From contig JAHBMJ010004213.1 of NCBI GenBank assembly GCA_018398765.1, positions 1 to 64,000 of the forward strand: DNA of 64,000 bases, given 5' to 3'. This DNA is from Chromera velia. Taxonomy: Eukaryota; Sar; Chromeraceae. Shown piece after piece: positions 16,613 through 50,668 of the stretch. Position 1 is the stretch's first letter; every line of letters begins with the position of its first letter. Below the pieces are notes generated by a model, which made no database searches, was not told the origin of the DNA, and worked only from the letters and a program-made list of their open reading frames with translations. A program made the position numbers and the translations under genes.

Positions 16613-17111
16613 ATGCCCGAGAAAGAAAAGGAAGAAAAGAAAGAGGGCGCAGATCCCTCTCCACCCAGTGCGATCTCAGCTGAGGTCGTGAAGGAAATAT
16701 ACACCTCAATGTGTGAGGCCCCCAACCCTGAGGAAGCACACAGAGCAGCAGACCGCATCGAAGCCGTCTCCCAGGTCGGACAGAAACAAGAACAGAAGAT
16801 ACCCCCCTTAGCTGTTTCCGAAGCTCGTGATACCGAGGAGCCTTTACAGACGGCTGCGAAGGTGAGCTTTGTGTGCGTGCAGATGGTTGCCGATTTGATG
16901 ACTGATTTTGTTGACTACGTGACCCGGGAGGCCTTCAGAACTGCACAGCACCAGACCACCCACCCCGACTACCCTCTGGGGGAGCCGCCAGAAGTGACTG
17001 CACAGGAAGTCAGGCAGGTTCTCGGTCAGTCAAACACTTCTGTTGCTATGAGCCACTGGCACGGGAGCGGTTGCGTCAGGGATACAGCGAGAGGGCCCAC
17101 GCTTCATTATG

Positions 17112-17142
<31 letters not shown>

Positions 17143-17439
17143 TTCTCTTTTCTATTGATGGGCCGAGCCAGCGTCTCTTCTCTGCATCGACTGCATGTTG
17201 CGGCTGAACAATTCAAAAGACCAAAACGATGCCTCCCTTCTATGTAGACCTTCTGACCCCTGACCCTACCGGTGCGTTGAGGGATCGCGGAACATATATT
17301 TCACTCCGAACACCCGTGAGAGTGGGGGTGCCGGCATGTACGTGCGTATATATGTGCACGCCGACCCCTTTCTCTCTCTCACACACACAAGAGAGAAAGA
17401 GAGAGACTGAGAGAGAGAGGGAAAGAATAAGCGAGCTAG

Positions 17440-17486
<47 letters not shown>

Positions 17487-18684
17487 CGCGCCTGTGCCTG
17501 CGCCTGCGCCTGCGCCTGCGTGTCGCTTGTGGGTGGCGCTGCCGGCCCTTTCAGTGTGTCAAGAGATACAGAGAGAACAAATTCTCGACACACACAGATC
17601 AATGCCCAGTCTCGTGCCTGTGTGTGTGTCTCTCACTCAAAGAAGCTGAATCCATCGTATACAACAGACAGAGGCAGTAATGAATGCATGATGGATGCAT
17701 ACATTCATTCATTCATGCAGAGAACGAATTCGGGATCGACTTGCCGGCTGACCTGCCGGGCGTCAATGAGCCCTTTCCTGCGCTTCCGGTCGGTCCCTTT
17801 TGGATCTAGCTTCCATTGTGGGTATTTATGTATACACCGGATCGCTTGATTTTGTTCCTTCCATCCCAAAGGGTGCGGTGCTCTCCATTCTCTCGGGTCC
17901 GGCTTTTGGATGTCCTGGCTGTCAAAGGAAGGACGCGTATGTGTGATGAAATGACACGATGAACGAAACGCCATTCGAAGTAGAGACCGGTAAGAGGAAA
18001 GGAAAGAAAGATGGACGGAAGGAAGAGGTCATTGCCTCGCCAGTTAGCAGTGAATGAAGCCGAAAAGGAAGAGACCTTCTGCGGTCATGTCGGCTTTCTT
18101 CTTTGCTTATTCTCTTGCTCCCTCTTCTTTTCCCGTTTCGTCTCGCCCTTCCCCTTCTTCTCCTTCTTGCGGTCCCTTTTCTGCAAAAGTGCTGCTTCTT
18201 CACAGAAGTTTAGCAACGACGGATTCGATAGAGTATTTGAGTGACTCGTTATGGCAGGACCACACCATCCACTAGAGATGCAGGTCTTCCTCTGTGTTGT
18301 CTCCTCTTGTCCCCGTTCCTCAGTCTTCCTTCCCTCTTCTTCCACCGCTGTCTGATCAGACTCCTCACTCACATGTGTGCACACCCTCAGGTGGCCTTAC
18401 CGCCCCCCCCGCGAGCCTCTTTGACTCAGCAACGAAGTGAAACTGCCAGGAACAGCTCTGGATCTGCAGCGGCAGCGGCGGCGGCGGCTGCGCCAGGAGC
18501 AGGAGCAGGAGCAGTGGGTCCAGACTCGGTGGTGGACGTTGATGACGATCCAAGCAACGTCGACTTCCAGCTCCCTCCCCAAATGGGCCATGCGGAAGAA
18601 ATGCAGCAACAGCAACAACACGGTCATGGCTTGATGTTGAGGGGGATGGGGTCACTAGCTCCCTTGAGGCCAACAGGATCGTGA
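16613..18684 (+). CDS. TAF12-like histone-fold protein, 257 aa
   Basis: Three exons join in frame: 16613-17024, 17721-17788 and 18391-18684 (donors GTCAGT and GTCGGT). The N-terminus is Glu/Lys-rich. Residues about 83-150 resemble a histone fold: VQMVADLMTDFVDYVTREAF, then EVTAQEVRQVLENEFGIDLP and a Pro-Gly, matching TAF12, where the second helix is followed by an LE-x-K-D-V helix and an I-P-G-F loop. TAF12 pairs with TAF4 in TFIID and ATAC/SAGA-type complexes. The C-terminus adds Ala9, Gly/Ala and Gln tracts (QQQQQHGHG). CENP-X or another small histone-fold protein is the alternative. Reading through GTCGGT instead ends exon 2 at a TAG (17809), giving 166 aa. The start is the first ATG in frame. 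Confidence 0.55.
17108..17520. repeat. Microsatellites inside intron 1 of the TAF12-like gene
   Basis: A CT tract (17110-17152), a GA-rich tract (17390-17425), a GT tract (17442-17478) running into a GC tract (17479-17491) and then four TGCGCC units. They create long low-complexity frames on both strands that are not genes. Confidence 0.9.
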
Positions 18685-19847
18685 TAAACTTCGATCATAT
18701 GGTCAATAGAGATGCATATGCTGTTAAAAATATGTGAATCAACAGTATTATCAACTTAAATCAACTCGTTGCTATTCATGTTAAAGCTAACAGTTAAAGA
18801 ATGGTTACAGGAAAAAAATTAAAGAAATTTAAGAAAAAATTACATTTTTTCAATTTAAAACAGCTATGTTTTGTAGTTGATTTTAGTTGATTTGATTCAT
18901 TGATTGATAGTTAATTTTTACCTGATCGTGCAATTCTTGATATATTCTGGTTGGAACTTTTGGCTGTAAGTTGTTGTCAGAAGAGAAGAAGAAGAAAAAA
19001 ATCTTTTTATATGATAATACGAGGTTATACGAGGTGGTATAGTCATGCAAGAAAAGCTGAGTTAAGAGGGAAGAGCGATTGAGTCTTCTGCTTGGTAGAC
19101 GATCCAGATAATCCAGAAGAATATATATGTACTAGAATATGTACAATTTTAAGTGCTTCGCTTGGTGATACTTGGTGTACTACAGGGTCTCTTTGGTTAA
19201 ATTGGAGACTTTGATCGCGATTGGAAGCTAGCTAGCTGCATGCTCGTACGCTGTGTCCATCTGTCCGCATGCACATAAGCATGCGACACCCTTTTTGCAA
19301 AAAGGTACCATCATGCATATACCTCAGAGGGCAGTGCAGTCCGTTGGTCGCACCAAAAGGCCCCAGAACCAAAGGTGAGCATCCTTCGTGTAGAAGCTCA
19401 CATCGCGCGCGCCCGCGCGCGCGCCTATTTTCCTTTGAAAATAATTTCGAGGCACTAGCTCACCCGCTATCTGTGTGTCACGTGTACATGCCTCGAGGAC
19501 ATGTACGACACGCATGCAAAGAAACAAACTGATCGAAGAAGTGCGTGGCAGCACAAACCTGCTACTCTGAACTATATATGAATGGGTGTCCTTCTTGAAC
19601 CATTCTGATAGTTGTTCCGTCTGTTTGGTTTGGTTGGGTCGAGTCGAATCACGAAAAGACAAACAAACGGTTCAGTGAGCGAGTCCTCTCTGACAGCCAG
19701 CACCGATCGGACCTCAACTTTTGACTGACTGTGTCAAGAAAGAGCGACACACCCACTTGAGCGAAGCCCTTCATTGTCTGGGTCCGTTCCCAGAATCCTC
19801 ATCTGCAATCTGATATATACAACAGACTAGAGCAGGCACTTGGGGCA
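18685..19847. other. Intergenic spacer, AT-rich then GC-mixed
   Basis: No gene recognised. A CG-dinucleotide run (about 19400-19422) and a short TATATA (19813-19818) just upstream of the next start codon are the only marked features. Confidence 0.5.
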
Positions 19848-20478
19848 ATGCCGCGCTTGCGCTTAGTGAAGGCGACTCTCTTCTTGTCGCTGCTCTTTGC
19901 GCTTGCTTCTTCAATTGCACCTACAGAAGCGAACGCCCAGGCTCCTCCCACTCCAAGCCAAAAAGACTTTCTCGAAACACAACCGGCACAGAGCGCAAAT
20001 GCAGCAGCACCCACAGAAGACACCAACGCAGAGGTGCCTGCTGAGGTAGGAGGAACAGACAAGGAGGAGGAGTCCCAAGCGACAAACACGCAGACAGACT
20101 CGGCAGTAAGCACAGAGACCCAGTCGACGGTGTCCTCTGACTCATCCTCCGCCCCAGCGCAGCCATCCTCATCACCTTCGTCTTTTGCACAGACATCCCA
20201 GCAGTCGCACACAAAGGCAAAGAAGGACGCGGCCTCTGCCAGGGTCGCGACTCTGGGCACGAAGGGCAACGCAGCAGCGAAGTCACTCGAGTCTTCCATG
20301 CACCTCTCGCACCAGGGCAGCGGAAGAGGGAAGAAGAGAGAGGGAGGCGACTGCAAGTCAGAGGCTCTGGAGGGCACCGGACTCTCTCTGGCATCCTTCG
20401 CACCTGAGTGAGTTGCTTTTCTGAAAGCTGTCCTATGGCTGGCTGGGTGGCTGGCTGGCTGACTGACTGACAGCCTGA

Positions 20479-20509
<31 letters not shown>

Positions 20510-22318
20510 AATGCATGCATGCATGCCTGACTGACTGACTGACTGACTGACTGACTGACTACATAACTGACTGACAGAGTCACGAATTGAGTGACTGACT
20601 GTCTATGTAACTGACACAGTTACTGACTGACACAGTCACTGACTGACTGATGACTGTTCGAGTCCGCCTACTCGATGTGAGTTCAGATGGAGACTCTCCG
20701 TCTCGATCTTTCTCCTCACGAACTGACGCACAGAAAACGCATCTGTACACGCAACGCTCACCTGTAACAACGACCGGTTGAACGCCTTCTGCTTTGGTAC
20801 AGATGAGAAGGCTTTTTGGTTATTTGCACACTTTATAGGTCCATTCGTCCATCGGTTCTTTTTCTTGAATTTGCCCAACGATGCCTCTTCCTTGTCTTCT
20901 AGTGTGTGGTTGACGTTTTTCGTGAAGCCGTACTTCCCTCTCAAGATTTTGCATTGTTCAGCACTCTAGTTGCTCTCAAGGCTGACATGAGAATTGAATA
21001 CTTTTGGGTCGACTGGTACAAAGCCTTTATTGGATTCACGCTCCCTCTTCCTCGTTTGCATCCTTCTGGTTGCTGCAGGGCCCAAAATTTTGGGGCGAAC
21101 TCTTTTTGTCTGAACATCAACGAGGTGCCCTCCTGCTGCGATGCCAACAGCACAGTAGCCATTGAGGACTTCCTCACAACTGTGGAGACCTCCTATGACT
21201 CTCTGTACTCCAACGAGGCCGCATTCAACCAGAACGATATGCAGGTGCATGAGGGCGGTGGGGGCGCTGGTTGTTTCTTTTTCTTCTTGTTCAACGGGGG
21301 TGCCGTTCAACTTCCTTCAATGATCCCGAAGTATGGTGATGCCGAAGATATTCGAGAGATGCAACTTCCGTTGTTGCCTCCAGCAGACGGTCTCCGTCTT
21401 TGTTTTGCATGTGAACTTTCTTAGAGGTCACTTTGAATTTCCGAATCTCTGAACGCACGTTTTTGTCTTCTTTTCTCTCTGTGTTTTCAGGTCGCAGCGA
21501 CCTACCACGCACTTCAGGAGAGAGTGGGACAGAAGAACTACACATCTGGCAAAGAAGGTAATTGCAGCAGAGGGGAATCCGGAGGGAACATTGACGTCTC
21601 TATCTGCTTTTCCCCTTTCCTCTCTGAATCAGCCTCTTTGTCTCCTGGGAAATTTGTCATTCGACAGAAAGACGAGGATTGTGCTGAAATATTGAAAGGA
21701 AACGGAGGAGACAGAAACAGAGAGGAGACAGCGTATGATCATGCAGAAGTCTCCACAAGACTCTTCGCAGAGAGGAGCTGAAAAGAAGGCAACGCAGATG
21801 AAGAATAGAGCAAGGAAGCAAGAACATGGAAAAGCGCAGCGACCAACGCGTCCCTCCCTTGGCCTCTGCATCATGCATGCAGACGTCCTGATGCTCGATC
21901 AGGAGTTCCTCGACTTCCTCCGCCTTGCCTATGACGTGTTGAACCAGACCGCTACAGAGTACGTCCAGGAGACGGAAACCGACGGGGGCCCTCTCAGCTC
22001 CACCAGAACTTTCCGGTCCTGCCAGCTTCAGGTCTACAAATTCTACAGAAGTCAGCTCGTCAAACAGATCGATAGAATGGCTTTTTTTTGTATTTTTTGA
22101 TTCAAGGTGGAAGATTAGAAGTCAAAACATCCCATACGAGTCTACGAGAGCTACATCGGTCCGGGTTCTCCACAGCGCAAAGAGAACCACAGAGAGACTT
22201 GACGTCCTAGCGGTTGGTTCTTTGATTGTTCCTTTCAGACGGAGGGGGGAAAGGAATCGTTCGTGAGTATTCTCAATTGTCTGGTCCTGCCTGTTTCTCT
22301 CATGAGTGATGCATACAA

Positions 22319-22359
<41 letters not shown>

Positions 22360-24703
22360 GAAGAGCTGTTATTCTGTTGTCTCTCTGTTTGCTTCATTCC
22401 GCATGCTCTGTAACTTGTCTTTCTGCAGATCTTCTCTGTTCCCTCTGTCTTCCCGCCAACCAAGGAGGCACCCTCTTGATCTCCAATAGGGAATGTGCAG
22501 ACGTCGGGTTCGAGTGCGCAGACCCCATGAACAGACTCCGACAACTGGTCAGTTGCCTCCCTCAAAACAAGAAAGAAGCCTTCCCTTCTCCACCTGTAGT
22601 AGTTTTTTTGTGCATACGTGAGTGTGCCTGCATGTACGTTTGGAATGTGCATATTCACAACCGTCGGACTAATCTCTACGTACGTGCAGCGGTGGTCCGT
22701 CAGGGATGCCTTCTATGACTTCAAGACAGCTGCCGGCAATCTGGTGAACGGGACCTACTGCGGATCTGAGAATACAGGCAAATACTGCCCAGATGCTCCA
22801 CAGGACGCAGAAAACGACACCGACACAGAGGCTGCCACGTTCATTCAGACTAGGGAACTCCGGCAAGATCCTGCCGCCGACAATTCAACAGCAAACGCCA
22901 CTACCACGGCAGCTCCAACCGAAGCTCCCGCAACCAACGAAACAGGAAACACAACAACACCCACTCCGGAGACGGTCAACGCCACTACTACTACCCCCCC
23001 GCCCCCCCCCGACGTGAACCTTCCTCCTTCCACCAGCACTACTACAACGACCACCACAACCGCGGTGGATTCTTCAACCGAGGAGTCAACAGAAGAAACT
23101 GCAGAGCCCACTGCCGGTGCCGTCGATCCTTCAGGTCTCCCTCTTCTGGATGGAGACGGAAATTCGAGAAAGGACTGGACAGACGAGGAAATCTGTTCTC
23201 GATACGTTTCAAGTCAGTGCCTGCCTGCCACGGTGTGAGGACTTATTTTGTCAGCAGTTTCTTCCAGCTCATTTTTGTACTGCACGTTCACCCTGCAAAA
23301 ATTACACAAGACAGAAACAGACAAACCACCGAGGAGCAGTAAGTACTGTCATACGTCGGCTGTTGTCCCTTCCCTTCAACGCGTCCTGCCAACCCCTGAC
23401 TGACCCAGACTCCCACTCGAATGCACAAATTCAGGCAGCATCTGTGGGGCGTGACAAGTCCTTCACGTCCCTTGTGCGTGCAGATTTGTTCTGTCCGTAC
23501 CTGAACCTCGGCTTACATACATGCTTTTATACAAAGATGCTTGGATAAATTGTTGGATAGATACATGGATGGATGAGATGGCTGCATGCAGAGAAGGACC
23601 CCCACTCTTTTGCAAAGCGCGTGATGGGAGAGCAGGAGTTCATCCTTCAAGTTGTCGAGACAGCCCTGAAGATCCATAGGGAGACAGTGCCGGTCAGTGA
23701 ATGAAGAGAGAGAAGATGGGGGGAGGGGGCTGTCTGCCAATATATTCTGTTCGAATTGTATGTTCATGCTGATCTTGTCTTTCCACTCCGCTGGCATGAT
23801 CGTCTCCTTCTCCAACATCACTGCAAAGAAAGGCCAAAGGGGAGTTACCAAAAATCCCAGAGCACGTCTCTCACCAATCCCGGATGAGTGGATGGATGGC
23901 GTGTTTTATGCACTTTCTCCCCCTTCCGCCTCTGCTGAAAATGTTCCACTTCCGCAAATAGATTGAGAAGACTGCGTTTTTTAAGGATAATTCAATCTCC
24001 GACAGAATTACACCGCAGATCTTTCTAGAAAACTTGAATGAATTTGGCATCTAGTTCCTGATCCCACGGCTCTTGCTTGTCTCTTTCTTTCTTTGTGCAG
24101 GTTCTGCACTCGGAGGTTCAGATCTTGATGCAGCTTGTAGAGAAGATGGAGAAGCGCGAGACAAAGTCATCTTCCAAGAAGGCCTCCAAGACAAAGAAAA
24201 ACTCCAAAAAACACCAACAGGGACAAATCGAATCCACAGGCGTACAAAAGAGCCCCCGCACAGTCTCTGTCTCAATTTCTGCAGACGGCTCCGTTGTGCC
24301 ATCCGAAACCCCCCAGTCCCTCGTACAAGCTAAGTCCCACACAGCTGCACCCGAGATCGATGCCTCGTATGGCCTGCTGTTCCAGCTCTCCGAGCAGAAG
24401 ACGGGGGCTGAGAAAGACTCGTTCCTCACAGGATTCTCTGATTTCATTGCGGTCTTGGAGAAACTCCCCAAGGGCACAGAGGGAGGAGAGACTTTGTCGA
24501 GAGAATATTTCTCTCAGAATTCTCCAAAATTCGGTCAGCAGAATTTTTCTTTCGGTCGTCCCAAACAGGAAGGAAGTAGACGGAGAGCAGCCCTCCTTTC
24601 TCTCACCGTTCCTCGCACGTGCGCGCGCGCGCACGCACGCACGCACGCACCGACACACACACACACACATTCACACACACACACACACACACACACATTC
24701 ACA

Positions 24704-24751
<48 letters not shown>

Positions 24752-25936
24752 GCATGCACGCATACACCATCCTTGTATGCTCACGCTCATCCTGAAGGAG
24801 ATTTGAAACATGCTTGATGGTTTGAGTGGATGCGAACGTGCAGATCTGCAAAAACAAAACTCTTGAAACACTCTTCGCGAGTTTGACCCGTGCTCTGTAT
24901 TGCTTCACTTCGTCATACGAACGCTGTTTCTTTGTATGTTCACACTTCAAACTGTGTGCATATATGCAGACGCCCAAGGGGACCCCTGCACGGCAGCAGA
25001 GGAGAACGAGGTCTGCCTGTTCCCAATGGACAAAACTGTCAATGGAACAAAGGTGGGTCGGTGCATGGGTTCCGGAGTGATCTGCTGCCTTGCAAGTGAA
25101 TGCGAACCTCTTGCGCTTCCACGCCTATTCTGTAACTCTAAAGTGGAGCTTCTTTCTCTCTATTCTCTCGCTGTCTGTGAATTGCCCACTTGCAAACTTC
25201 ATAAAACTCACATGAGAAACCTACCTTTGTGTGAATGCATGTGGGTACATACCCTCACTGACTGCAGGAGGAGATAGAGTCGGGGGAGTATAACATCACC
25301 GCAGACGGCTGTGCGAGGGGATATGGGCCCAACGGCTGGTGCTGGGTCGAACCTCCCATCACAAAGTCAGCTGATTGAGGAGAGAGCGTTTTTGCTTTTC
25401 GATCTCAGGGTTGTCTGCCGTTCTGTCTGTCTGTCTGTCTGGTCAAGATGCACGCCGTATCCCTTTGGCTTTCTGCCTCTTTGTAGAGAAAAGAGAAGAG
25501 AAGTCATATTTGTCCACTGTCCGTCTGCAGAGCCGAGAAGGAGGGAGGCAAGGACAGAAAGTGGGCAGTATGCAACGAAGCCTGTAACAACCCCAAGGCC
25601 GTCTTCTTCAGCCCAGACGGACAGCAGCCCGAGTCTGCACCCACTCAAGTCAGCACCCCCCCTGAGCCCACAACCACCGTGGCGCCCGAGGAGACGACAA
25701 CGACGACGACCACCGCCTCCTCAGAAGGTGTGCACTTCTCGGAGGATGGGGCGACTGTGAAGGGTTCCTCTGCAGATACTTACCAGACCTCAAAGTATGC
25801 TGCAGAGAACAAAAGTGCAGATGATGAGGAAGAGAAGGAGAGTGGGGCTTTGAGAGTGATGGGAACTTTCGGTTTCCACCTCTTCGCTTTGTTGGGCCTG
25901 GCGCTTCTTCACAACTCTTCTGGGGGGTTGAGATGA
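19848..25936 (+). CDS. Secreted mucin-like protein with Cys domain and C-terminal hydrophobic tail, 907 aa
   Basis: Eleven exons join with matching phase: 19848-20407, 21079-21244, 21491-21557, 21883-22050, 22429-22547, 22690-23212, 23592-23692, 24101-24533, 24970-25052, 25268-25365 and 25531-25936. Residues 1-30 are a signal peptide (RLRLVKATLFLSLLFALASS). Residues 30-186 are Ser/Thr/Glu/Ala-rich. Helical, Cys-containing exons 2-5 follow (CLPANQGG, NRECADVGFECADP). Exon 6 has a Thr/Pro mucin-like stretch with many N-x-T sites; exon 8 is Lys-rich; exons 9-11 have more cysteines (CARGYGPNGWCW) and a Thr run. The end, TFGFHLFALLGLALLHN plus a few residues, is a tail anchor or GPI signal. It is probably a cell-surface or wall glycoprotein. 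The exon 9 end could alternatively be 25095. Family not recognised. Confidence 0.75.
20429..20660. repeat. TGAC/TGCC tetranucleotide array in intron 1 of the secreted-protein gene
   Basis: Degenerate GGCTG, TGCC and TGAC units, including (TGCC)6 and (TGAC)8, begin about 20 bp after the donor GTGAGT at 20408. Confidence 0.9.
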
Positions 25937-28306
25937 GAGAGACGCACACTAAAGCCGTTCATCTGCCTTTGATCGACTTTCCCGGGTTCGGTTTCTTTTG
26001 TTCCAAAGGTCTGCATGCATCATCGTGATGCATGTGGACGCTTCCTTACGCATTCATGCAAACAAACCTCGGCCCTTCTTTCCCCCAAACGCCTTCAACT
26101 CCGAGTCGTGTTCTTCGATCCTTCCGGAGAAGGAGAGTTCCGATGAGTGAAACATACCGACAGAAATGAGCTCTACGTATGCACAAGGTTCATCAATCGT
26201 GATTCTTGCACTGTGCCTAGCTTTTCAATTCAAGCATTTAGACTTTCAACTGATTGTTCTGACGGTATACGGGCCCAACTCGCAATGCAGATCGATCGAT
26301 CGATTGATCAAGTGTGTTTATTTCTAGGTTTATTTGATGTGGGTTCACCAAAATCTGTTTGAAATCATCATATCATCATCACATATTGCATTTAAATGCA
26401 CAATGCTCATGCAGGCTGCGATTATCCGCGCTGGCACTCAAGGTGGCATCCCCCTAGGATAATACACACAAACCTAGACACAAGCATAAATACATAACAC
26501 ATTCTAGAGATATATAAGTGTATACGTCACAACATTATGTCAACATACATATCAGAGTGGTCTAGAAATTGATGTAATATTTTTTTTTGTAAACGTTGTA
26601 CTGCAGTGTTAGAAATACTATATTGATGCTTTATATAGACATTTTTTTAAACTGAACTTAGTCTTAAGCCTAGTCTTAATAAGTCTTAAACTATGTTTCC
26701 TAGTATATTTTAACATTCTATCCCATTAATTAATGAAGTGACTCTATATTAATGAAAAACTTTGAAAAGACTTTCACTTTAAGTTTATTCAAAAAACACG
26801 AAAAAACTAACAAGGAATAAATTAAAAGAAATCATATACAATTTAGATAGACGTCTAAATCTCAAGCTATAGTGTATGACTTCACTACGCTGTCACGTCT
26901 TTTACTTAGGTCTTTGTCTGCTGATACAACTGTACAGCAGGAGTACTTAAAAAGAAGGCACTCGGTTGATCTTACTGATCATCTCAGTTGCATCGATCCG
27001 GCACAAACGTGGACGAAAACACTCTATGATGAAATGACGTAATTTATGTTGCTTTTGCGCATGTGCGTAGATTAATTTCACTCATTATGCCTTATGAAAG
27101 ACCCATAAAAGCGTACACAAACCCATGAATTTTGTCATGAGCATGCATTAAACTTACTCACCGATCAACTAAGTTTATGCAGACAAAGGCAAATCTGAAA
27201 CAATGTGATACCAATAGCTTTTCTCTCTCCGTGCGTATCAGCATGCACGGAGAAAGTAGTGTTTAAGTAGTAGAATTATTGCTTGATAATAAAATTTACT
27301 TATAAAACTATACCATAGTTTTATAATTAATTTTCAATCCAAACGCTTCAACTCACATAAAATAATGGATAGAGCAATGCTAAGAGCATGTGTATAATGA
27401 CAGTTTTGAGTATAAAAAATGAAAACAGTAATAGCTTATAAACCATAAAAGATGAGAACTTTATATCAAAATTTAATTAGAAAAAGCAGTGTTAAAGTAA
27501 ATATGAGTTATGTTATTATGTTTAAACTTATTTACATAAGTTTTTCAATAAATTGTTTTGTTTACTTTTTTGCTTTTTTACAAAAAATTACTTTTTTAAA
27601 GTTTTTTCGTTGACATTACTTTTTTTCTTACTTTTGCTTATTTTGAAAAAAGCAAAAAAATAGGAAAAACTATTTTTACCCTAAGATTTTTTTAAGTTTT
27701 TTATTTTTTTCAAAAAAAGTAACTTTTTCATGACTCATAGATGTTAGTCAGTGTATATCAACATCAGAAAGACAAGAGGAACTTTGATCATTCTTCACGT
27801 GAATATACTAGGAACTGGCGAATGCATACAATTGGATGTTTCTGTGAATACCCACTTTAATTACGCGGTTTATGCTGTGACTTAACTTTTTTTTGGGTGA
27901 GTTAAGCACTCCTATACATGTCGCATCCGCTTTTGCCTGCGTGGCTCTCCATCTGCTGCAGCTTTACTTCTCTTGATCACTGAACACCCCGGGGCCTGTA
28001 GGTTCTTTCGGTGTTCATTGAGGACACTTTCTAACCTTTTCCGCTGCTAGCACGGTTTCTGGTGACTTTTTTGACTCCAGCAGCATTCCAGCAGCCCTTT
28101 TCCATTAAGTGATCGAGGTTTTTGTTATGCATGCCGCGTCCCCATGTATAATTAAGGCTAGACCCAGGTTATTTTCGAAGCACGTCAAAGAACGCACAAG
28201 CATAAAGCGTAAAAAGGAAGTTACTATTTTTTTCAAGTGAATCAACTCTAATTAATAGCTTTTAGTGGCGTAAAAATAAAAATGAAAAGCAAAACGTACT
28301 ATATAC
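25937..28306. other. AT-rich gene-poor block
   Basis: No gene is supported over 2.3 kb. From about 26300 the base composition falls sharply in GC, with poly-T/poly-A runs around 27540-27730. A short hairpin (CTCTCCGTGC/GCACGGAGAAAG) lies at about 27223-27257. Confidence 0.55.
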
Positions 28307-28950
28307 CCTGCAGGTAGCCAGGATTTTACGGGATTTTAGCCCAGGATTTTAGCGGATTTTACGGGATTTTGGCCAGGATTTTAGCGGATTTTAGCGGATT
28401 TTGCCCAAGATTCTGCCAGACTCTTAACGTTAAAAATATAATCCCTACACCTAGGATTTTAGAATCTAAATTCCTGGAAGAAAGCTAAAATCCTAGCCTC
28501 TTCCTAGGATTTTACAGGATTATACAGGATTTTACGAGATTATACGGGATTTTACGGGATTATACGAGATTTTACGGGATTTTAAATAAATGAATAAAAT
28601 TAAATTCAAAGATGAATGATACACTTCAAGGCTGCATAGAAGGGATAACTGGCATCGATTGTGATCGACTTTTATTTCATTGTTTTTATTTATGTTAAAA
28701 TCTCGTAAAATCCCGTACAATCCCGTAAAATCCCAGAAAATCCTAGCATTCATTTCTAAAATCCTACGATCTATAATTTTAGTCTTTATAATCTCTAAAG
28801 CCAGGATTTTAGATTCTAAAATCCTGGAGAAATAGTCCGGCAGAATTCTGGGCAAAATCCACCTAAATCCGCTAAAATCCTGGCCAAAATCCCGTAAAAT
28901 CCGCTAAAATCCTGGGCTAAAATCCCGTACAATTTTTGCTACCTGCAGGG
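28307..28950. mobile_element. 644-bp foldback MITE with TA target site
   Basis: Both ends read CCCTGCAGGTAGC inward and TA flanks each side (28305-28306 and 28951-28952). Inverted similarity continues for over 100 bp. The arms are built from GGATTTTA units with GCGG, CGGG or GGCC variations (TTTTAGCGGATTTTACGGG). There is no coding sequence. The TA target suggests mobilisation by a Tc1/mariner or similar transposase; that is inference. Confidence 0.85.
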
Positions 28951-29077
28951 TAAAGGTAGGAAGCTTATACTGACTGATGAACAAAAAACTTTACAGTATT
29001 TGCAGTCAGCAAGATATACAATGAAATTGTAGTGTGACATCATTCAAATTGCGATACAATACCCTATATACTACCTA

Positions 29078-33445: not shown

Positions 33446-34528
33446 ATGGCTGTGAGGAGGCGAATTCAGAAAGAAGCGGAAGATTTCTCGAAAGAGCCCC
33501 TGCTGCGCATCACAGTCGCCTCAGATCAAGAGGAGGACCCCGGAATCAGCCTGAAGCTCAGGCTCACAATCGAGGGCCCCGAAAAGACGCCATACGAAGG
33601 AAAGCTTCTTCCCCTAGAGATCCTGTACCCCCAGGACTATCCTTTCAGGCCCTTCACGATCATCTCACGATCGTGCGAACAGCCCATGAAGACACGGATA
33701 GTCCACCACCCTTCTCTGGCTTCACATGAACCCTTCTGCCTGTCCTTTCTGCGAACGGCCGGATGCTATCCCGCAATCGAGTGGTCCCCGGCAATGTCCG
33801 CAAGGAAGATCCTCGAAGTATTGATCCTTCCTCAGCTTACTTGTTGTACTTCACAGGAAACCTTCCTAAACTTTTTCAAGGAAAACGGTCACGTTCTCGC
33901 AACCCATTGGCGGCACGTAGCTCCCCAGGGCATGAAGACAAACCCTTCGACCCCGCCTCCACCTGATGCTCTGCCGATTTCTGTGAAGACACTGACAGGT
34001 GATGTTTGCATGCTAGGGCCGTTCTCAGAGAATGCAACAGTCTTGCAGCTGCAGAAGAAAATTCACGAACAGAGAAAAATTCCAGTAACCGACCAGCGAC
34101 TAAATTTTGAAGGGAAAGAGCTGTCGAGTGAACGAGCTCTGGCGGATTACCCTGGACTGCTTATGCGCTCAAGTGAGGGTGGAAGTCAGAGTCCGACTGT
34201 CTATCTTACTGTGAAATCCCGGTGCGACTGCAATTACATGAAATCCAACTGGCTCTGCCAGCTTGCAGAAAAGGACTGGAACCAGTTCTGGGACATGGCG
34301 TCGTTTTGGAATGGAAAGTCCCGTAAGGCGGCGTTGCGGCTCTTCCTGCTCCTGGAGCAGGGCCGTGCTGAGGCGGCGTGTGAGTCCTCGGAGACGGTAA
34401 CGCTCATGGTTGGGCTTCAGAGAGTCTTGCAGGAGAGAAAGAGCAGACAAGCAGCAGGAGGAGGGGAGGAGGTGTCGCTAAGGATTGAAAAACAGGACAT
34501 CCGGAGACTGCTGCTTTCCTTTCTTTGA
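33446..34528 (+). CDS. E2 ubiquitin-conjugating (UBC) domain fused to a ubiquitin-like domain, 360 aa
   Basis: Intronless. Residues about 1-155 are a UBC fold: YPFRPF, then HHPS (87-90) in the HPN position and PFCLSFL with Cys98 eight residues after the HPN third residue, the same spacing as in active E2s, then WSPAMSARKILEVL. The Asn of HPN is Ser here. A proline linker (171-178) leads to a ubiquitin-like domain, 181 to about 258 (PISVKTLTGD, LNFEGKELSSERALADYPG), with no C-terminal Gly-Gly, so it is not processed. The last 100 residues are helical and basic. It likely accepts ubiquitin or a related modifier from an E1 by thioester; the UBL may tether it to the proteasome or an E3. The start is the first ATG, just after TA tracts. 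Confidence 0.85.
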   Translation: MAVRRRIQKEAEDFSKEPLLRITVASDQEEDPGISLKLRLTIEGPEKTPYEGKLLPLEILYPQDYPFRPFTIISRSCEQPMKTRIVHHPSLASHEPFCLSFLRTAGCYPAIEWSPAMSARKILEVLILPQLTCCTSQETFLNFFKENGHVLATHWRHVAPQGMKTNPSTPPPPDALPISVKTLTGDVCMLGPFSENATVLQLQKKIHEQRKIPVTDQRLNFEGKELSSERALADYPGLLMRSSEGGSQSPTVYLTVKSRCDCNYMKSNWLCQLAEKDWNQFWDMASFWNGKSRKAALRLFLLLEQGRAEAACESSETVTLMVGLQRVLQERKSRQAAGGGEEVSLRIEKQDIRRLLLSFL

Positions 34529-34945: not shown

Positions 34946-34952
34946 CCTCTAT
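34738..34952. repeat. (TCTG)n/(TTTG)n tetranucleotide array
   Basis: Nearly continuous CTGT units with TCTA and TTTG variants lie 200 bp downstream of the E2-UBL stop. Cys/Val/Ser-rich frames over it are artefacts. Confidence 0.95.
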
Positions 34953-37968: not shown

Positions 37969-37992
37969 TATATATATATATATATATATATT
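37969..37992 (+). promoter_or_regulatory. (TA)n tract in the divergent promoter region
   Basis: A 24-bp pure TA run lies 139 bp upstream of the ATG at 38131, within the 707-bp gap between the divergent methyltransferase and membrane-protein genes. It is a candidate core promoter or simply a microsatellite. Confidence 0.35.
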
Positions 37993-38130
37993 ACGCGAAG
38001 GTTGATGCGCCCTATCCATCAAGTACTTTCTTACACAGCTGAGCGCTTCTGCTTGGCTTTTGATCCGCCAAGGACAAAGCGGATCCTTCCTCTCTGCATC
38101 AAGGTCAGACGTTTACTGAAGTAAGCAGGC

Positions 38131-41100: not shown

Positions 41101-43256
41101 AACTGACGAAGGGGAAAGAATTCACGAGACACTTGTCGGCATTTCAAGAGGGGAAGAGGGAGAGAAAACAAGAGACAGCCTCGTGTTCCCCTTCAAGGCT
41201 TCCAAACAGGGAGGACGGTGTGCAGGTCTCAGGGGAGGCGCGGCTCTGTGTCCTCTCTGGCTCACAGGGCTGCTTGAGTCCATGGAAGGGACCTTGAATG
41301 TGACTTCTGCTCAGTCAGTTATGTATTAGTCATGTTACAGCAGTCACACGTCCGTGCTCGTATGTTTTCTCTAAATGGCAAGTCCGAGATTTCTGTAGAT
41401 CCATGATGATCAGGCGAGAGAGAGAAGTCTTGCTGGTGTGCTCAAATCAAGTCGATCTTCTCTCTCTCTCCTTTGACTTTTTTCTGCTGATACCTGAGTG
41501 GGCTTCTTCGCTGTCCAATCGAAACCGTATTTCTGATTGTGCCATGATTCTGATTCTTCAGGATGGATACCCTCATATGTATGCCCTCACTTGAATGTCA
41601 TCTCTCCATTGGCCTCTTGCGTTTGTGCTGCAGGAGTGGAAGGACGATCGCCTCGGTGGCTGCTCTGCAGGATGAAGAAGAGGAAGACCCTGGAGAGGTA
41701 ACGCTGTCAGGGGTGAACGTGACAGGGGTGACTGTGCAGCCTCTGGAGGCATCCGTTTCCTCCGCAGTGGGGCTGGAGGTGCAGGCGGAGGTGGTCATGG
41801 GGGTTTCTCTGCGATTTCCCTCGGGAGTGGAGGATCCGGTTGTTTCGTCTGTGCGGGTTGAGGGCATCATTGGAAGGGGGGAGAAATCGGAAGCGGATTG
41901 GCGGTCTTGGAGTGAAGTCGGGAGTGTGAATTTAACAACCAGTGGGACAGGGGTGGGGGTGAATGTGACTGCGGGGAGACTGGCAACAGTGCTGGGGGGG
42001 GTTGTGGTATCTGTAGGGGAGGGCATGCCGTGGCCCCTTGAGGGTCCCTTCTCCTTCTCTGGGAACTTCACTGTGTCTCTCGCTGAAGGGGGGGAGATAT
42101 CCACTGTGTTTGAGAATATTCCTGTGAGTGGTGAGTGGAAGAAATCTTCCCTCGAGGTCACTCGAATGACTGACCTTCGCAAAAGAGGGGAGAAGCCGAA
42201 GAAGTCGGAAGGCTTGCCTTTTGGTGTGTCTGTGTCTCTCAGTCAATCTGTCCACGTACACTCCCCACTCCCCCTCCCGGAAGTGACCTATTCCCTCCGA
42301 CTCGGCAGTTTTCCTCGAGAGGCAATTGGCACTTTGTCTCTCAGGGGCGTCAAGGTTAATCCAGCAGAGGATGACGGGGGGGGATCGGTGAGCTTTGCCA
42401 GTGGTCGAGGGAGATTTCTGACGATATCGGAAGGTGTGTCTTCCCGTGCGGTGAAGCGCTTCATCACCGAGATGTCGTCTGTCGGCCCTGAAGGGATGAA
42501 CCTGACGGCGGTTCTGGACATGCCGATAGAGAATAGCGAGTTGACGAATGACGGCATTTTGACGTCTCTGTTCCTCCCGGAGAGCCTTCACATCCCGTAT
42601 CTCCCTTGGACGGCAAAAGCGGCACTAGAGGCAGGGGAAGGGGAGGGCGGGAAGAAAACACTTGAATTAAGAATGAATGTGACTGACCTGGCAATAGGGG
42701 AAGAAGAGGAAGAAACGGAGACAGAAGGAGAAGAAGAAACGGAAGCATCGGACGAAGATGATGACCTCCAAGTTTGGCTCTCTGCCTCCCTAGCGCTCAG
42801 TCTTCTTCGTCTGCCAGCAGCCTTGCAAGAAGTGGTTGCTCGTTGGGAGGCTGCCGAGCTGAGAATTCGATTTCTGCAGCAAGAAAAGAGCGAGGATGCG
42901 GATGAAGGGACCGTCATTGCTCGTCTCTCGACGAGTGGTTTGACGAATATGCTCACCCCCGAGTTGGAAGTGAGAGCGAATGACGACCTGAGAGGTGTCT
43001 CTCTCCTTTTGGGGCTTTCTCCCTCCGATGGGGAGATGGAGTTGGTGGATGGTGCAGATTCTCTGACAAGTCTGGGGAGTCTCCTTCTTGAACAGGTGAG
43101 TAAGTAAGTGAGCACGTGAGGGGGTGATGTCTTTCAAGAGAGACAATCTCATGCGTTGTAGCAGCATCGGTTTGTTCGTTGTGTGATCTCTGTGAAGAAT
43201 TAAAAGGGTTCTGGTTGTGCGATGGTGTCATCAAGCATTTGTGTACCTGATGTGAT

Positions 43257-43293
<37 letters not shown>

Positions 43294-46200
43294 ACAGGGC
43301 GAAGAGGGGCTCCCGATTGTCGGGGAGGTCCTCCTTCGGGCCGACACCAGTCTTGGCACAGCGACTTTGGATCCTCTTGAATTTGAAGGCAGAGCAGTTG
43401 TGCAGTCGTCATCCTCTCCTTCTTCTTCTTCCGTTGAGACACCTGGGAGGGAAGAGACTAGAGTGACCGCGTTGGTCATCTCCGACTCGACAGAAGAAGA
43501 ATGGGGAACCTCTGAAGAGACTGTGGAACTTTCACTTGGCGGGGAGTTGGTGAATCCCTTTCCGGTCTCGTTTGTCCTTGGACGTGTGTCTGAGGGTGTG
43601 AGTGTCTCCCTCCGAGTAGAGAATGAAGACGGCGGGCAATTGAGTCTTGTCGGAGAGGGAGAAGGGGAGGAAGGGACAGAAGCGGCAGCACAGTCTTTCT
43701 TCATCATCCCCCCTTTTTCGAATCAATTGATTGCCCGAGGGAAATTGGGGCGGGAGAATGAGAAAGTGCTGTCATCTCTTTTGTCATCCCTCCTGAAAGG
43801 CTCCAACGCCGCTCTGACCGTCTTTCCGTCTGAGAGGACGAGACCACTTGCGTCTCTGCTAGCCGAAGGATTACCGAATCCTCTAGAATGGGACGAGAGG
43901 GCAAGTAGATCCGGTCCCGTTAAGCCGGTTGTGCGTGCACAGAGCGTATCAATGGACTTCGGAAGGAATGGAAACGCCCTTGCAACACCGCAGCTTTCCT
44001 GCGATGTCGGCGTCGAGATCGAATCCCCTCCTGGAGCAGATCTGTCCATGAGAGTCAGTCAGTCAGTCAGTCAGTCAGTCAGTCAGTCAGTCAAGTCGGC
44101 CAGTCAGAGCGTCTGAAAGTCTTTTGTCGGAATATTCCAAGATGGATGGATAGCTTTATGGATGGATGGAAGGAAACTTACTGGCTCTTCAGAGTGAAGA
44201 AGCACTCATTTTGATGGATTAATTCTCTGCTGTGGTTTCTTCTCGAGTGCAGGTTGCGAGTGTGACAGGGGGCCTGAGGCTTCTGTACGAAGGAAGTCAG
44301 GCGGGCACTTTGGGAGTTGAGCTCTCAAACCTTCAGACCTCCTCAGACGGTCTCTCGTTCGAGGGATCCCTCAGAAATGTGGATCTGAGTGGGCCTTCAG
44401 ATGGTCTGCCCAGTTTGGTGCGGGAGTCTCTCTGGGCTGGTGAGGGGACCCGGAAGGACGTTGACGTCTCGGGTGCACCCTCCGTGACAATCCAAACAAA
44501 AATTGGAGAAACCAGAATTGATGCCTTCCCGTTGGCACTTCAAATTCCCCTTGAAGGTCAGGCAGCGTCGATGGGTGCACGGGGGTCCATCAACGCATTC
44601 ACTTGCTTATCCTCTCTTCTGTCAATCCTTCGGAACACATCTGGTCCTTTTGGGTTTTTCTGCTCCCTCTCACTGAATTGACTTCGGCTTCAATTCCCTC
44701 TTGTGCCGCGCTTTGCCCATATTGTAGAGAAAGAAAATCGCGAATTCTAGGGACAGACGAGTGACAAAATTTCCGCCCCGTCTGTCGACTTGGGCGTAAA
44801 CTGAAATAGACATGTTTTATCCCTTTTTGCTTTTGCCATTTCCCCCTCACAAGTGAAGCTAGCTACATTTCCTGTAAGCAGGTGCTGGAGGGTTGATGAG
44901 TGACGAGATGACCACTCGGTCTGTTGAGGTCGACTCGACATCTTCCTCTGGTCTCTCTTTGGGCCTCTCCGTTCGGATCTTCGGGCGCTCCCCGATTCCT
45001 CTTCGTGTCGGGCCTCTCTCTCTGGACGTGTACGACAGACAGGGAACGACGAGCGCGTCTAGTCGGGTGGGCACTCTGAGGTTTCAAGACTTCAGATTGA
45101 GTAATGAGGGGGCTGTGCAGTTGGACGCAAACCTTGAAGTCACTGGGAGTGCAGCCGAGAGAACGGTGTCGAACCTGTTTGCGCTGGAGAGTCAGAGACT
45201 CGCAGTGAGAGGAACAACGTCGAGCTCCCCGTCCCCCTTTCTTCAGCGTGTGTTCCAAGGATGGCAGGCCTCTCTGGAACTCCCCCCCGCTCCCTTTGGA
45301 TTCATCAACGCCATTTCAATTCAGCTGGGGGTCAGTCAGTCAGTCAGGCAGGCAGGCAGACAGGCAGGCAGGCAGGCAGACAGGCAGGCAGACAGGCAGG
45401 CAGGCAAGCAGGCAGGCAGGCAGGCAGGCAGGCAGTCAGTTAGGAAGGCAGACAGGCAGTCAGTCAGTCAGTCAGTCAGTCAGTCAGTCAGTCAGTCAGT
45501 CAGAAAGGAAAACAACAAACAATTTCCTTTAAAAGTTTCTTGAGAGAAAATGGTTGTCCCCTTTCCTGGCTGACAGTGTACTACTGTAACAAATCATTAC
45601 CAACATCAGAGTGTCCGTTCTGCTGATTCCTTCCCATCCTTACCTACCTGTCTGCTCCCCATATTCCCTCCCACCTGCAGTCTTTTCTGTTTATGCGCCC
45701 CAGCGCGACGGTGGTGTTCGAAAATCCTCTGAGCGCAGCCATAGAGGTCCTCTCCTTCAACGCCGAAGTCCGAGTGCCGGGAAGCTCTTCGTCAGTCGAT
45801 CAAACGTGTCGATGGATCATGTGAGATGAGAAGAGAAGAGAAGAGAAGAGAAGAGAAGTGTTGATGTGGTCATCCATTCACTCACTGGATACGCAACACA
45901 GTCTCCTTTCAGAAAGTTCTCTGCTCATGTCACGCTGGTCTCTCTGGCGTGAGAAAGTGTGTAAGTGAGTGAGTGAGTAAGTGAAGAGGTGCGCGGATAA
46001 GTTGTGTTTCTTGCTTGACGCACTGGCACACGATGTTTGCCTGCATACAGAGTGATAGGCACAGTGAAGAAGTCCTGGCCTTCCAGCGCACCCCAAAGAG
46101 TACCCCCACGGGACATCAGCATAGCTTCCGACCTGGACCTGAGCCTTTTGTTGGGCCCTGCGGCCTTCATCACGGGGTTCCAGACTGCGAACTCTGGCCG

Positions 46201-46297
46201 GGCCTCTGTGGATGTCATCGGAAGGGCCAACATTTGGGTCGGGAGGTATAGAATGACGTTGAACTTCAATCAGAAGGGGGTTGACTCAACTTTTTAA
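38131..46297 (+). CDS. Large type II membrane protein with repeated beta-rich domains, 2071 aa
   Basis: Eight exons join with matching phase: 38131-38972, 39268-41313, 41634-43095, 43298-44053, 44253-44556, 44882-45330, 45681-45790 and 46051-46297. Residues 1-69 are polar and basic; residues 70-95 (VITSLSLCVAFCILGAITF) are one membrane helix; the remaining 1970 residues would be lumenal or extracellular. That part repeats beta-rich stretches of the type V-x-L-x-G-x-V-x-V and G-x-L-x-L, and has many N-x-T/S sites. VVFENPLSAAIEV near the C-terminus resembles the LEA_2/WHy pattern. The layout (N-terminal anchor, LEA_2- or DUF3712-like repeats) recalls fungal vacuolar Tag1-type proteins, but that match is weak. 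Acidic linkers (EEEEETETEGEEETE) separate blocks. Six of its seven donors begin GTC. Confidence 0.75.
38971..38999. repeat. (CAGT)7 array spanning the donor of intron 1
   Basis: The donor GTCAGT at 38973 is the first full unit. 38985 is also in phase, so the exon end is ambiguous by 12 nt. Confidence 0.9.
43096..43297 (+). repeat. Intron 3 of the membrane-protein gene: GTRA units at the donor and a (GT)n tract at the acceptor
   Basis: The intron opens GTGAGTAAGTAAGTGAG and its last 40 bases are a (GT)17-type run ending GTGCACAG. Confidence 0.85.
44054..44093 (+). repeat. (GTCA)10 starting exactly at the donor of intron 4
   Basis: Exon 4 ends ATGAGA at 44053 and the array begins with the next base. 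Confidence 0.92.
45331..45503 (+). repeat. GTCA/GGCA/GACA array starting at the donor of intron 6
   Basis: Exon 6 ends CTGGGG at 45330; (GTCA)4 follows directly, then GGCA and GACA units, then (GTCA)n again to 45503. Confidence 0.92.
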
Positions 46298-46520
46298 GCA
46301 AACTGCGGATACTAGTTGCTATCTTAACAATTTATAAAATAGATCAATCCTGATGTTGGTATTAAATCACTGTTAATGTATATGTTTGCTAGCATATTTT
46401 AACTTATTTATACTTATTTATTGAATGAACAACAGACTGAGTGCCACAGTTTTTTTACATTGTTCGTTTTCTCTAGCGTTTTCTGAATCTTTACAATAAT
46501 TTTCAAAGTTTCATCTATGA

Positions 46521-46671
46521 GTCGGCAAACTATTAAAATAGTAAAAATAGTTAACTATTTTTGCTATTTTAGAAACTATTTTAGGACACTATTAAAATAG
46601 TAGTCATTAATAGTAAAATAATGAGTATTTTTACTATTTCAAAGTTGGTTTTACTATTTTACTATTCCGAC
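46521..46671. mobile_element. 151-bp AT-rich foldback, MITE-like
   Basis: GTCGG followed by AAAATAGTAAAA at the left end faces its complement at the right end. The interior is built from ACTATTTT/AAAATAGT palindromes. No target duplication is clear. It lies 224 bp after the membrane-protein stop. Confidence 0.5.
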
Positions 46672-46903
46672 TATTACATGCTAGTATACTCTTTGTGACA
46701 TAAAGTTCCGAGTCCGAGTCAAGTTGCATTACAGTCTGTCACGTGATGTACCTGTTGATCCAAAAGCGCCAAGCGACAGCATTTCGAACTTCAATCGTTC
46801 CGTCGACCCATAGGTGTACCTACATCAGGCCATCTCTGCCAAACTGTGTGCCTGTCTTTTGTACCTGTGAGAATAGCTGTGTGACTTAATTCTTGACGGT
46901 GGA

Positions 46904-47751
46904 TCACTCTGCGAGGGCTGCCCTCTGCCTGTTGAAGAAGGGCCTCAGAGTCCACTCCGTCTCGACATCCGTCATGTCTGCAGTGCCCAGCTCGATCTTG
47001 TAGATCCGCAGTTTGAATCTGCACCAAGGGAATCCGGGGGACATGCGTTCACAGGAGGGTACACGTGCATGTATGCGTACATCGACTTCAGGACGCAGAT
47101 GATACTCGCGCAGGGGAAGAGAAATGCGAATGCGCAGTGACAACCGAATCTCCCTCACAAAACGGGAAGCTGATTTGCTTGTTTTTCTCTTCCCTTCCGC
47201 TCCGTCCCTCCCATTCCATTTGTGAGTCAAAGAGAGAGAAACATTTTCTGGACTCTCAAAATTGTTGAGCTGGAGCAACCACACTCTTGCTCACACACTC
47301 CCTTCCTCTCTTCTTCACCCCATCGGCGAATGAATCAGTGATCCAATGAATGGAACAGTCCGTCAATCAATCAAAGAAGCAGTCAGTCAGTCAGCAAATC
47401 AGTCCACTATCCAATGACTTAGTCCAAAGCAAAAGGAGAAGACGCCTGACTGACAACAAAGAACTGCAGAGAAAATGATTAATACAAACATTTTCTCTCT
47501 TCCCAAAGCTAAATAAGTTAAGCCCATCACACATCAAACGCACCGACCGACCTCGGTCCGATTTCCTTCAACTCTATCGGGTCCTCCTTCCCCCCCTTTC
47601 CCTTCTTCCCTCTGCCTTCCTCCTCCTCCTCCCCTTCCTCTGCTCCCTCAGGACCTCTGCTCGACTCTGCATGATGCGGGAATTGGAATTCATTTATGAA
47701 TGGGCATGCATAAAGAAAGGGGGTGTCGCAGAGTGACCTTGCTCGCGAGCG

Positions 47752-47782
<31 letters not shown>

Positions 47783-49410
47783 GCACACACGAACACACTG
47801 TGTAAGAAGGCAGCTAGGCAGGTGATAAAAAGCATGAGCAACAAAGAAAGGGATGATGGATGCAGCCTGTCGATTGATCAGATAGTGCACTCCTGGCCGT
47901 CTGATGAAATTTTCAAGGACGTGAGTGAGTGCCTGCCTCTAGGCGTAAGGGAGGAAGCAGAGAGTTTCATCTTCCTGACAGACGGACAGAGTGCATCCGG
48001 GGCATGGAGCGCTTTCTGCGCGCTGTGTCATTCGCACACTCACTTACTAACTGATTGACTGACTGACTTTTGCGTTTGTCTTCCCACAGAGTGTGGCGAA
48101 AATGGATTCGGTCCTGGCAGGAAAACACAGGGGAGGAAGGGGAAAGCCAGAGATTGGCTACTCACTCAATGACATGACAGAGAAGGAGAGCGTTGCTGCA
48201 AGTGTGCATCCTAGTGGACGGAATTCGGTTTTGCGGGGATCCACAAAAGAAAAAGACAGAAGGGGTCCGTGACTTTCCCCCGGGGCCCTGACTAATTGAT
48301 TGCATTGATGCGATCGATGCATGGGCCAGAAGTGTTTGTCGCTCGGGTAGTACACTTTCTGTTGGCATGCAGGCTTTCTGACAGCCTCTCTCTCTCCTTC
48401 CCTCCCCCCACCGTGCCCCTCTCACACACACAGACGCACACACAGTGTCACGGACACGTCTTTGTAATGTCCAGGTTGAAGCAAGACTGAAGGACTGCGA
48501 AGACTCTCTCTCACTGATTCATTCCACCTGGACAGGACGCTAGCCCCCCCTTCCTTCTCCTCTCTCTCTTTGCTTCCACGCTTCCCTCGCGTCTTCCTTC
48601 GAAACTTGAGCGAGTCCAAATAGGAAGGAAGGAACTGCCTTCGCCTCGACTCTGCCCTCACACAGACGCACCTGAAAGTTCACGAACGAGACCAGTCTCT
48701 GGGCATGAGGCGCTGCTGGGGGAAAGAGGTACTTGAGGATGTTGGCGACCCTATCGCCTAGTCGGGAGGAAAAATTGTGGAACACTAGGTGGGGGTGGAC
48801 CTGCAGAGGGAGGGAGGGCGGAAGGGAGGGGATCGATCAACAGAGAGAGGGAGAGACAGAAGACGTGCATGAAGGAGTAAAGGCAGACAAGCGTCTCTGG
48901 CAGAAAGAAGGGTGGCGCTGCTTGGAACGGAAGGGAAGATCAAGCTTGTCTTCCTTCCTCCCTTCTGTTTGAAAGAAAAAAAGAAGGGAGCGATCGAGGA
49001 GGAAGCCCCTCCTTCCCTGTTTCGAGTCATCGAATGGCATCTTCGTGAAGGCAGGGGGGAAGATTTTGTCGGAAGGAAGCTGCAGGTCATCCAGGGCCCC
49101 TTTTCTGATGACGGACAGAAAATGCGCATGATCAGTTGGATTGTCCGTGGCAGTCTTTCTCTCGGTCTGAACATCAATCAAAAGTGAAGAAAAAACGAAG
49201 AAAGGACCCAGTCAGTCTCACGCAACCTTTGAAGGTCTTGTCTGTCCGACCTCGGGCATGTTGGCAGGCTTCTCTGGGAGATCGTGTCTGAGGACGACGT
49301 CTGAGAGTCCGAAGTAGGCGGTGGGCCCGTGGGGGAGGTGGGAGACGATGAGACCGTCTGGCTCCCCTCTGTGCTCGTGCACGATGATCAAGTCACTGAT
49401 GTCGTTCCTC

Positions 49411-49473
<63 letters not shown>

Positions 49474-50668
49474 AGGGCGTTGTAGATTAATATCGGAAGG
49501 CAGGAAGGAAAGAGGGAAGGCAGGCAGGAAGGAAGGACAGACGGTTGGAAAGCAGGAAGGAAAGAAGATCGAGAGGAGGGTCGTGTGACTGAGACGAGCC
49601 TAAGGGACGGACGGACGGACGGACACGCCCTCCCTCGCGCCCTCAGGAAGAAATGCATGAATGAATGAATGAATGAATGAATGAAAGAAAGAAAGAAAGA
49701 AAGAAAGAAAGAAAAAGGCAAAGACGCCCACACACCCCGTGACAGTGCAGACAGACCTGCAGAGCTGCACGAGGTCCTTCACGACATAGTTCCCTCTGTT
49801 GACCCTCTGTGCGGTTGGGATCACCAGTCGGAGTTCCTTTGCGAATTGGGTCAGGCGGGACGAGGGGTCCCGGGCGGTGGTGAGGAGAATGCGGGGGTCC
49901 TTCAAGCCTGCAGGTGCACCTCGTACACGTGTGTGCGGGTGGGTATACATTCATGTACACGCACACGTGTGCACAGTGTCCAGGGGACTCCGTCAAGCCA
50001 GCTCTCATCGTCTACAGATGGGTTGGAATGCGTAGACACGTAGACATACTGTAAAACAGATAGAGCGCAGAGACGGGCAGCACGGGGCGTCTGAGAAGAA
50101 CGGAGAGGGACGACTGTAGGGGCGGGGCAACATTAAAGAAAGGAGATGGAAAGCCGAACACAATCGTGATGGGATAGGACGCGAAGGAAAATGAAGGAAG
50201 GGAAACGCGCACAAAGCGAGAGTAAGAGACACGTAGACGGCTAGCGTCTGGGCAGAATGGGCACGAAGAGAGGAGAAAAAAAGAAGAAAAATCACCGAGT
50301 CACAACATGGGAAAGGGATTCAAAATTATGCTGTGACGGTCTGACATTATTGGAGAGAAGGGAAACCTGCGAACTTACAGGACCACAAGATATGAATGAG
50401 TGCTCACGAATACACACTCGTCATTCCGCCGACCTGCGAATGCATACTCGTCGTCAATATGGCTGTGTGGGTCTCTGGTTTTTTCATCTGTGAGGTCAAG
50501 CTTCTTTCTCAAGTCTCTCTCTTCTCCTCTGAGTTCTGTGGGGATCGCCTTCCCTGACTCCAGAGCATCCTGAAGTTTCCGTTTCCTGTCAGAGATGGTC
50601 TTCTCCTTCTCTTCCAACGACTTGCGGTACAGGTATTCCTTCCTTAAACGAACGTTCTTACGGAGCAT
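46904..50668 (-). CDS. IMP4: U3 snoRNP protein IMP4, 316 aa
   Basis: Seven exons join in frame on the minus strand: 50668-50434, 49907-49757, 49410-49251, 48800-48672, 48113-48068 (46 nt), 47666-47552 and 47018-46904. The protein starts [17 protein letters not shown], as IMP4 does, then [87 protein letters not shown] and [20 protein letters not shown]: the whole Brix domain in order. IMP4 works with IMP3 and MPP10 in the nucleolar processome that cuts pre-18S rRNA. An acidic/basic insert ([17 protein letters not shown]) in exon 6 makes it about 25 residues longer than the human protein. Five of six donors begin GTC. Confidence 0.95.
49412..49712. repeat. Simple repeats in intron 2 of IMP4
   Basis: (CA)n at 49412-49453 abuts the exon 3 acceptor on the minus strand, then GA units, GGAA/GGCA units, (GGAC)4, (GAAT)n and (GAAA)n to 49712. 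Confidence 0.9.

Follow-up and report, generated by a model that had tools for sequence, protein, structure and literature searches.

Most introns that we could place in the genome of Chromera velia carry a cytosine at the third intron base (+3) of the 5' splice site (donor), a position that is usually a purine, the preferred partner of U1. Among 88 introns placed in 11 conserved genes, +3 was C in 59 (67%), G in 19, A in 7, and T in 3, and the consensus 5' splice site from the placed introns is AG|GTCNGT. The work began with the 64,000-nucleotide stretch shown above (the window), which is contig C3511 of a 177.8-Mb assembly of 4040 contigs. Matches in this genome to the alveolin family (PF12314, n = 11) and to light-harvesting proteins (PF00504, n = 58) point to a photosynthetic alveolate. 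An earlier, sequence-only reading of the window had claimed that C dominates +3, at 73% of 26 donors, and that GTCAGT is the single commonest donor. The first claim is borne out as a headline by the 88 placed donors, and the second holds with GTCAGT at 27 of 87. Within the window, only IMP4 and ETF-QO were placeable by homology, and the confirmation spans these two genes and nine outside it (82 of the 88 donors), not each of the 26 donors first noted.

Introns were placed by reading frame and homology in IMP4, ETF-QO, PRP8, CCT1, CCT3, CCT4, CCT6, CCT7, CCT8, an ABC-F protein, and PP2A-A, and only GT...AG was demanded of them. The ABC-F and PP2A-A genes were drawn from 20 evenly spaced 10-kb stretches of the genome. 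For each junction, the frame-keeping GT...AG pairs lying at most 45 bases from sure residues were listed, and the length and residues of the homolog decided among them. Alignments to PDB chains support IMP4, CCT6, and parts of PRP8; the other genes were judged against human sequences. The first parts of CCT8 and PRP8 were left out, and two ambiguous junctions were removed before counting, namely, IMP4 intron 5 and the PRP8 junction between INPL and SLFIPAK, which lies in a variable stretch. Counts are given for 87 introns (ten genes, without ETF-QO), for 88 (with ETF-QO), or, in some cases, for 83. The sample is biased to conserved genes, its junctions were placed from DNA alone, and only GT donors were sought. 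The placed introns have a median length of 346 bases and range from 115 to 707.

Base composition at +3 and tandem GTCN units

In the 87 donors, +3 was C in 59, G in 19, A in 6, and T in 3. Gene by gene, C was found at 15 of 27 donors in PRP8, 9 of 11 in CCT8, 8 of 11 in CCT3, 8 of 10 in CCT1, 7 of 8 in CCT4, 4 of 9 in CCT6, 0 of 2 in CCT7, 4 of 5 in IMP4, 3 of 3 in ABC-F, and 1 of 1 in PP2A-A. The other donor positions were -2 A (59), -1 G (78), +4 A (44), G (24), C (10), or T (9), +5 G (86), and +6 T (67). GT...AG ends (GT and AG being required by the search), AG before GT, and G at +5 are as in U2-type introns; a purine at +3, which is a preference of that class and not a strict criterion, was found in 26 of 88 donors against 59 with C. 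U12-type donors read ATATCC or GTATCC, and neither hexamer occurred among 83 introns, in a search that allowed no AT donors.

As background, we took the base found after GT at other sites in the placed introns (C 0.299, G 0.349, T 0.259, and A 0.093). Relative to these frequencies, +3 C is raised 2.27-fold, while A stands at 0.74, G at 0.63, and T at 0.13; the low count of A is near background, and the standout features are the high C and the low T. The binomial probability of 59 C in 87 is 3.5e-13 against the intron background and 2.8e-13 when GTNNG serves as background. Junctions with a single frame-keeping donor (n = 35) gave C 24, G 10, and A 1, and blindly taking the 5'-most in-frame GT gave C in 57 of 88, compared with C in 42 of 109 unchosen in-frame GTs (both ETF-QO candidates included).

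These counts could arise with no reader of +3 C at all, if U1 were indifferent to the base at this position and the C came from mutation bias or short tandem repeats (GTCA, GTCT, GTCG). Period-4 repeats abound in the introns: self-similarity at periods 2 and 4 is raised in their middles (lag-4 identity, 0.38), on a sense strand that is T-rich and A-poor. A C follows GTCNGT at 34 of 44 donors, compared with 57 of 98 occurrences within the introns themselves (p = 0.04) and 316 of 600 in other contigs (200 kb; p = 0.002). Moreover, a homology-free count of MAGGTxNGT over 264 kb gave a weak excess of C (25 of 75, with A 17, G 22, and T 11) that was gone when a following C was disallowed (8 of 46, with A 13, G 18, and T 7); by themselves, these counts are no demonstration of a +3 C effect. 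Against an unread +3 stand the 2.27-fold and 0.13-fold departures of C and T from the background of the very same introns, and C still leads among donors that have no further GTC at +5 (25 of 46) and among those other than GTCAGT (32 of 60). We consider it unlikely that +3 goes unread.

Intron starts bear short tandem GTCN runs, with N varying, in which GTC recurs in register at +5, +9, and +13 in 39, 14, and 12 of 83 introns, respectively. On the sense strand, 34 of 94 runs of at least two GTCN units lie at donors, and antisense runs number 16. An RNA-binding protein might recognize GUCN runs at intron starts and recruit U1 or the tri-small nuclear ribonucleoprotein, with +3 C being the first unit of the run. 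However, much of the in-register GTC recurrence, and of the C at +7, is a general period-4 habit of the genome, and the donors without a second unit keep their C in 25 of 46 cases; such a protein is an improbable cause.

Self-trained hidden Markov gene finding with a flat starting donor model was also tried. Its coding seed was small, the model wandered off to the edges of microsatellites, and no use was made of its +3 frequencies (C, 0.28 to 0.39; G, 0.30 to 0.41).

U1 and U6 genes and the hand-over step

The sequence-only reading had offered two causes for +3 C: either U1 or another factor tolerates or prefers this base, or selection on +3 is relaxed. A genome search found one U1 gene above the Rfam cut-off, and its 5' end, AAACUUACCUGG, is canonical. 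A second copy has the same 5' end without an Sm site, and a third is without the 5' end. The U1-C family is present. The U6 box is likewise as expected of a U2-type system, with ACAGAG in seven of seven copies and ACAGAGA in six of seven. Placed opposite a U (or pseudouridine) of U1, C at +3 is therefore a mismatch; a simple duplex calculation for the 87 donors puts the mean cost to U1 pairing of having C rather than A at about 3.4 kcal/mol, and none of the 87 matches U1 at all nine positions. On the strength of this cost and of the missing nine-position match, we conclude that +3 C is not there for U1.

Classical U1 logic would be kept if a U1 that does pair with +3 C had been missed by the assembly or the search, whether as a variant gene or through RNA editing or an unusual modification at position 6. 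Editing and modification are invisible in DNA, the genome search scores best candidates only, and U1-derived copies with an altered 5' end do exist: a partial copy on contig C3598 reads AUAUACC, with one mismatch. That copy, however, ends after CATTGC, has neither an Sm site nor the stems that should follow, and carries no G at position 6. We also searched the genome with a U1 pattern in which positions 5 and 6 were free, using the reversed pattern as a control. The pattern had six matches, and the two with zero mismatches both read ACUUACC. The sole match with G at position 6 had three mismatches, and the reversed control yielded as many matches as the U1 pattern (3 and 4, versus 3 and 3). 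No U1 matching +3 C was found in this pattern search, with the reservation about editing and modification just given, and we regard a missed U1 as quite improbable. That the true junctions instead lie elsewhere, at GTRAGT donors, is hardly credible: the junctions were placed from DNA alone and, for most genes, against a human sequence, yet C prevails where a single donor was possible and where the donor was taken blindly and is scarcer at the unchosen GTs, and G stood at +5 in 86 of 87 donors although that base was never required.

The exon and intron sides of the donors were negatively linked in strength, as in the two-class description of 5' splice sites. A stood at +4 in 28 of 35 donors whose exon does not end in AG versus 16 of 52 whose exon does (p = 8e-6). 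All nine donors without G at -1 had NAGT at +3 to +6, versus 25 of the 78 others (p = 1e-4), and they did so as GTCAGT (seven) or GTAAGT (two). PMC11732430 and PMC10581693 describe such a trade-off, between U5-strong and U6-strong donors, in plants and animals. Our data suggest that GTCAGT behaves as a strong intron side, and this behavior is unlike the expected outcome of relaxed selection, with which the raised C and depleted T also fit poorly. Altered U1 and relaxed selection are thus both disfavored as causes. What stands of the earlier proposal is its other half, by elimination: some factor other than U1 pairing seems to favor C at +3.

Our best guess, tentative and unproven, is that the +3 letter is set at the hand-over from U1 to U6 and not by U1 pairing; C would then lie opposite G44 of U6, next to PRP8 and SNRNP27K. 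U1 would pair with the exon end, with +1 and +2, and then with +5 and +6 across the +3 mismatch, such that U1 would contribute little to the reading of C at +3. According to PMC11732430, once U1 has departed, the methylated A43 of U6 lies opposite +4 and G44 opposite +3, where a purine interacts only weakly. In the present genome, a C arriving opposite G44 of the ACAGAG box (human numbering) could form a Watson-Crick pair, and PRP8, SNRNP27K, and the N6-methyladenosine mark that METTL16 places on U6 may hold the helix between U6 and the 5' splice site. SNRNP27K is present (PF08648, E 6e-24), with a YMNRKGGFN stretch, as is a METTL16-family gene (PF05971) with an NPPF motif in its locus. PRP8 (contig C249, 11001-30000) has QAIMK where the human chains, the only rows compared, have QACLK, beside the RNase H-like domain. 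The QACLK stretch reportedly crosslinks to the 5' splice site; the difference is a lead only. The broader proposition, that the spliceosome moved the readout of +3 from U1 pairing to the U6/PRP8 step, with C becoming the consensus while the pairing sequences of U1 and U6 stayed unchanged, is possible but doubtful.

Several observations weigh against setting +3 at the hand-over. The estimated U6 duplex energy over the 87 donors averages -0.92 kcal/mol with C and -1.50 kcal/mol with A, so that nothing is gained from C, and C helps only when U stands at +4 (GUCUGU, -4.7), yet +4 U occurs in 9 of 87; this contrary result slightly lowers our confidence in the U6 mechanism. U could wobble with G44, yet T is found at +3 less often than any other base (3 of 88). 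The association of +3 C with a weak exon side was not significant (27 of 35 versus 32 of 52, p = 0.16), and a 77-residue piece carrying the NPPF motif matched no Pfam family when searched alone. Finally, according to PMC10581693, the U6 box is identical in organisms with A or G at +3. U6 alone therefore cannot explain the difference at +3, and setting +3 at the hand-over would still require a protein difference, perhaps in PRP8, SNU23, PRP38, or SNRNP27K.

Donors and other features of the window

IMP4, on the minus strand (50668-46907), aligned to PDB IMP4 chains over residues 1-237 and 272-313 of 317 (best E 5e-86). Five of its junctions are fixed by frame and alignment, and four of these have C at +3; the sequence-only reading had counted five of six, of which the sixth donor is ambiguous and is not counted here. 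Intron 1 (49908..50433, first intron base 50433) has the donor CAG|GTCGGC, and the alignment of its flanking exons to the PDB chains runs through the junction with no more than a one-residue gap. The same alignment supports intron 2 (49411..49756, first base 49756; CAG|GTCTGT), intron 3 (48801..49250, first base 49250; GAG|GTCGGA), intron 4 (48114..48671, first base 48671; CAG|GTGCGT, with G at +3), and intron 6 (47019..47551, first base 47551; GAG|GTCGGT), all on the minus strand. For intron 3, an alternative in-frame donor further on, AAG|GTTGCG, was rejected; it would add eight residues that are absent from the aligned homologs. Intron 5 begins in a tandem donor array, AAAA|GTCAGTCAGTCAATCAGTTAGTAAGTGAGTG (48037..48067, minus strand, donor at 48067), within an unaligned insert absent from homologs. 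Its exact start is ambiguous, and it was excluded from the count because an in-frame GTGAGT is also present 24 bases on, in this stretch without homologs.

The ETF-QO donor (63400..63405, plus strand) is GAG|GTAGGT, with A at +3, in agreement with the earlier count of no C at its one donor; there, VYEFVE joins DDDGKPKLQINAQNCLHCKTC. Two in-frame donors were possible, and the choice was made by length relative to the human protein.

Elsewhere in the window, a 5S rRNA gene lies on the minus strand at 61153-61287 (Rfam RF00001, E 2e-13). A single open frame on the plus strand (33446-34528) fuses a ubiquitin-conjugating (E2) domain to a ubiquitin domain (Pfam UQ_con, E 3e-12; ubiquitin, E 3e-11). 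Open frames at 54489-56123 and 57889-59931, on the minus strand, resemble, as judged by eye only, parts of a LINE-type element (reverse transcriptase and endonuclease).

Comparison with known 5' splice sites

A lineage that combines +3 C with an unchanged U1 is a natural experiment on how 5' splice site choice is shared between U1 and the hand-over to U6. In practical terms, software for gene finding or splice scoring that was trained on GTRAGT may put donors of this genome in the wrong place. The literature searched, which included PMC4501334 in part and excluded supplements, held no report of an AG|GTCNGT consensus.

The donors described here resemble the canonical U2-type site (CAG|GTRAGT) in their GT-AG ends, exon-end AG, +5 G, +6 T, and canonical U1 and U6 pairing sequences, and they depart from it at +3, where 67% of those placed have C and not a purine. 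They also resemble the two major classes of 5' splice sites set out by Parker, Fica, and Simpson (PMC11732430; PMC10581693) in the trade-off between the exon side (U5) and the intron side (U6) and in the A at +4 that goes with weak exon ends. The Saccharomycotina, according to PMC10581693, switched from A to U at +4 and vary little at +3. Here, in contrast, it is +3 that differs; the SNRNP27K and METTL16 families, the loss of either of which goes with the +4 switch, were both matched, and +4 is A in 44 and T in 9 of 87 donors, not mainly U. Dinoflagellates, with their GC and GA donors, are likewise alveolates with unusual donors (PMC4083563 and PMC7789003), but in them it is the second intron base that varies, whereas in our introns, for which only GT was sought, GT is kept and +3 differs. 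In diplonemids, too, odd donors were checked against U1, and one species has an alternative U1, as reported in PMC12621601; in the genome described here, by contrast, no U1 matching +3 C was found, and the C stands opposite a canonical U1.

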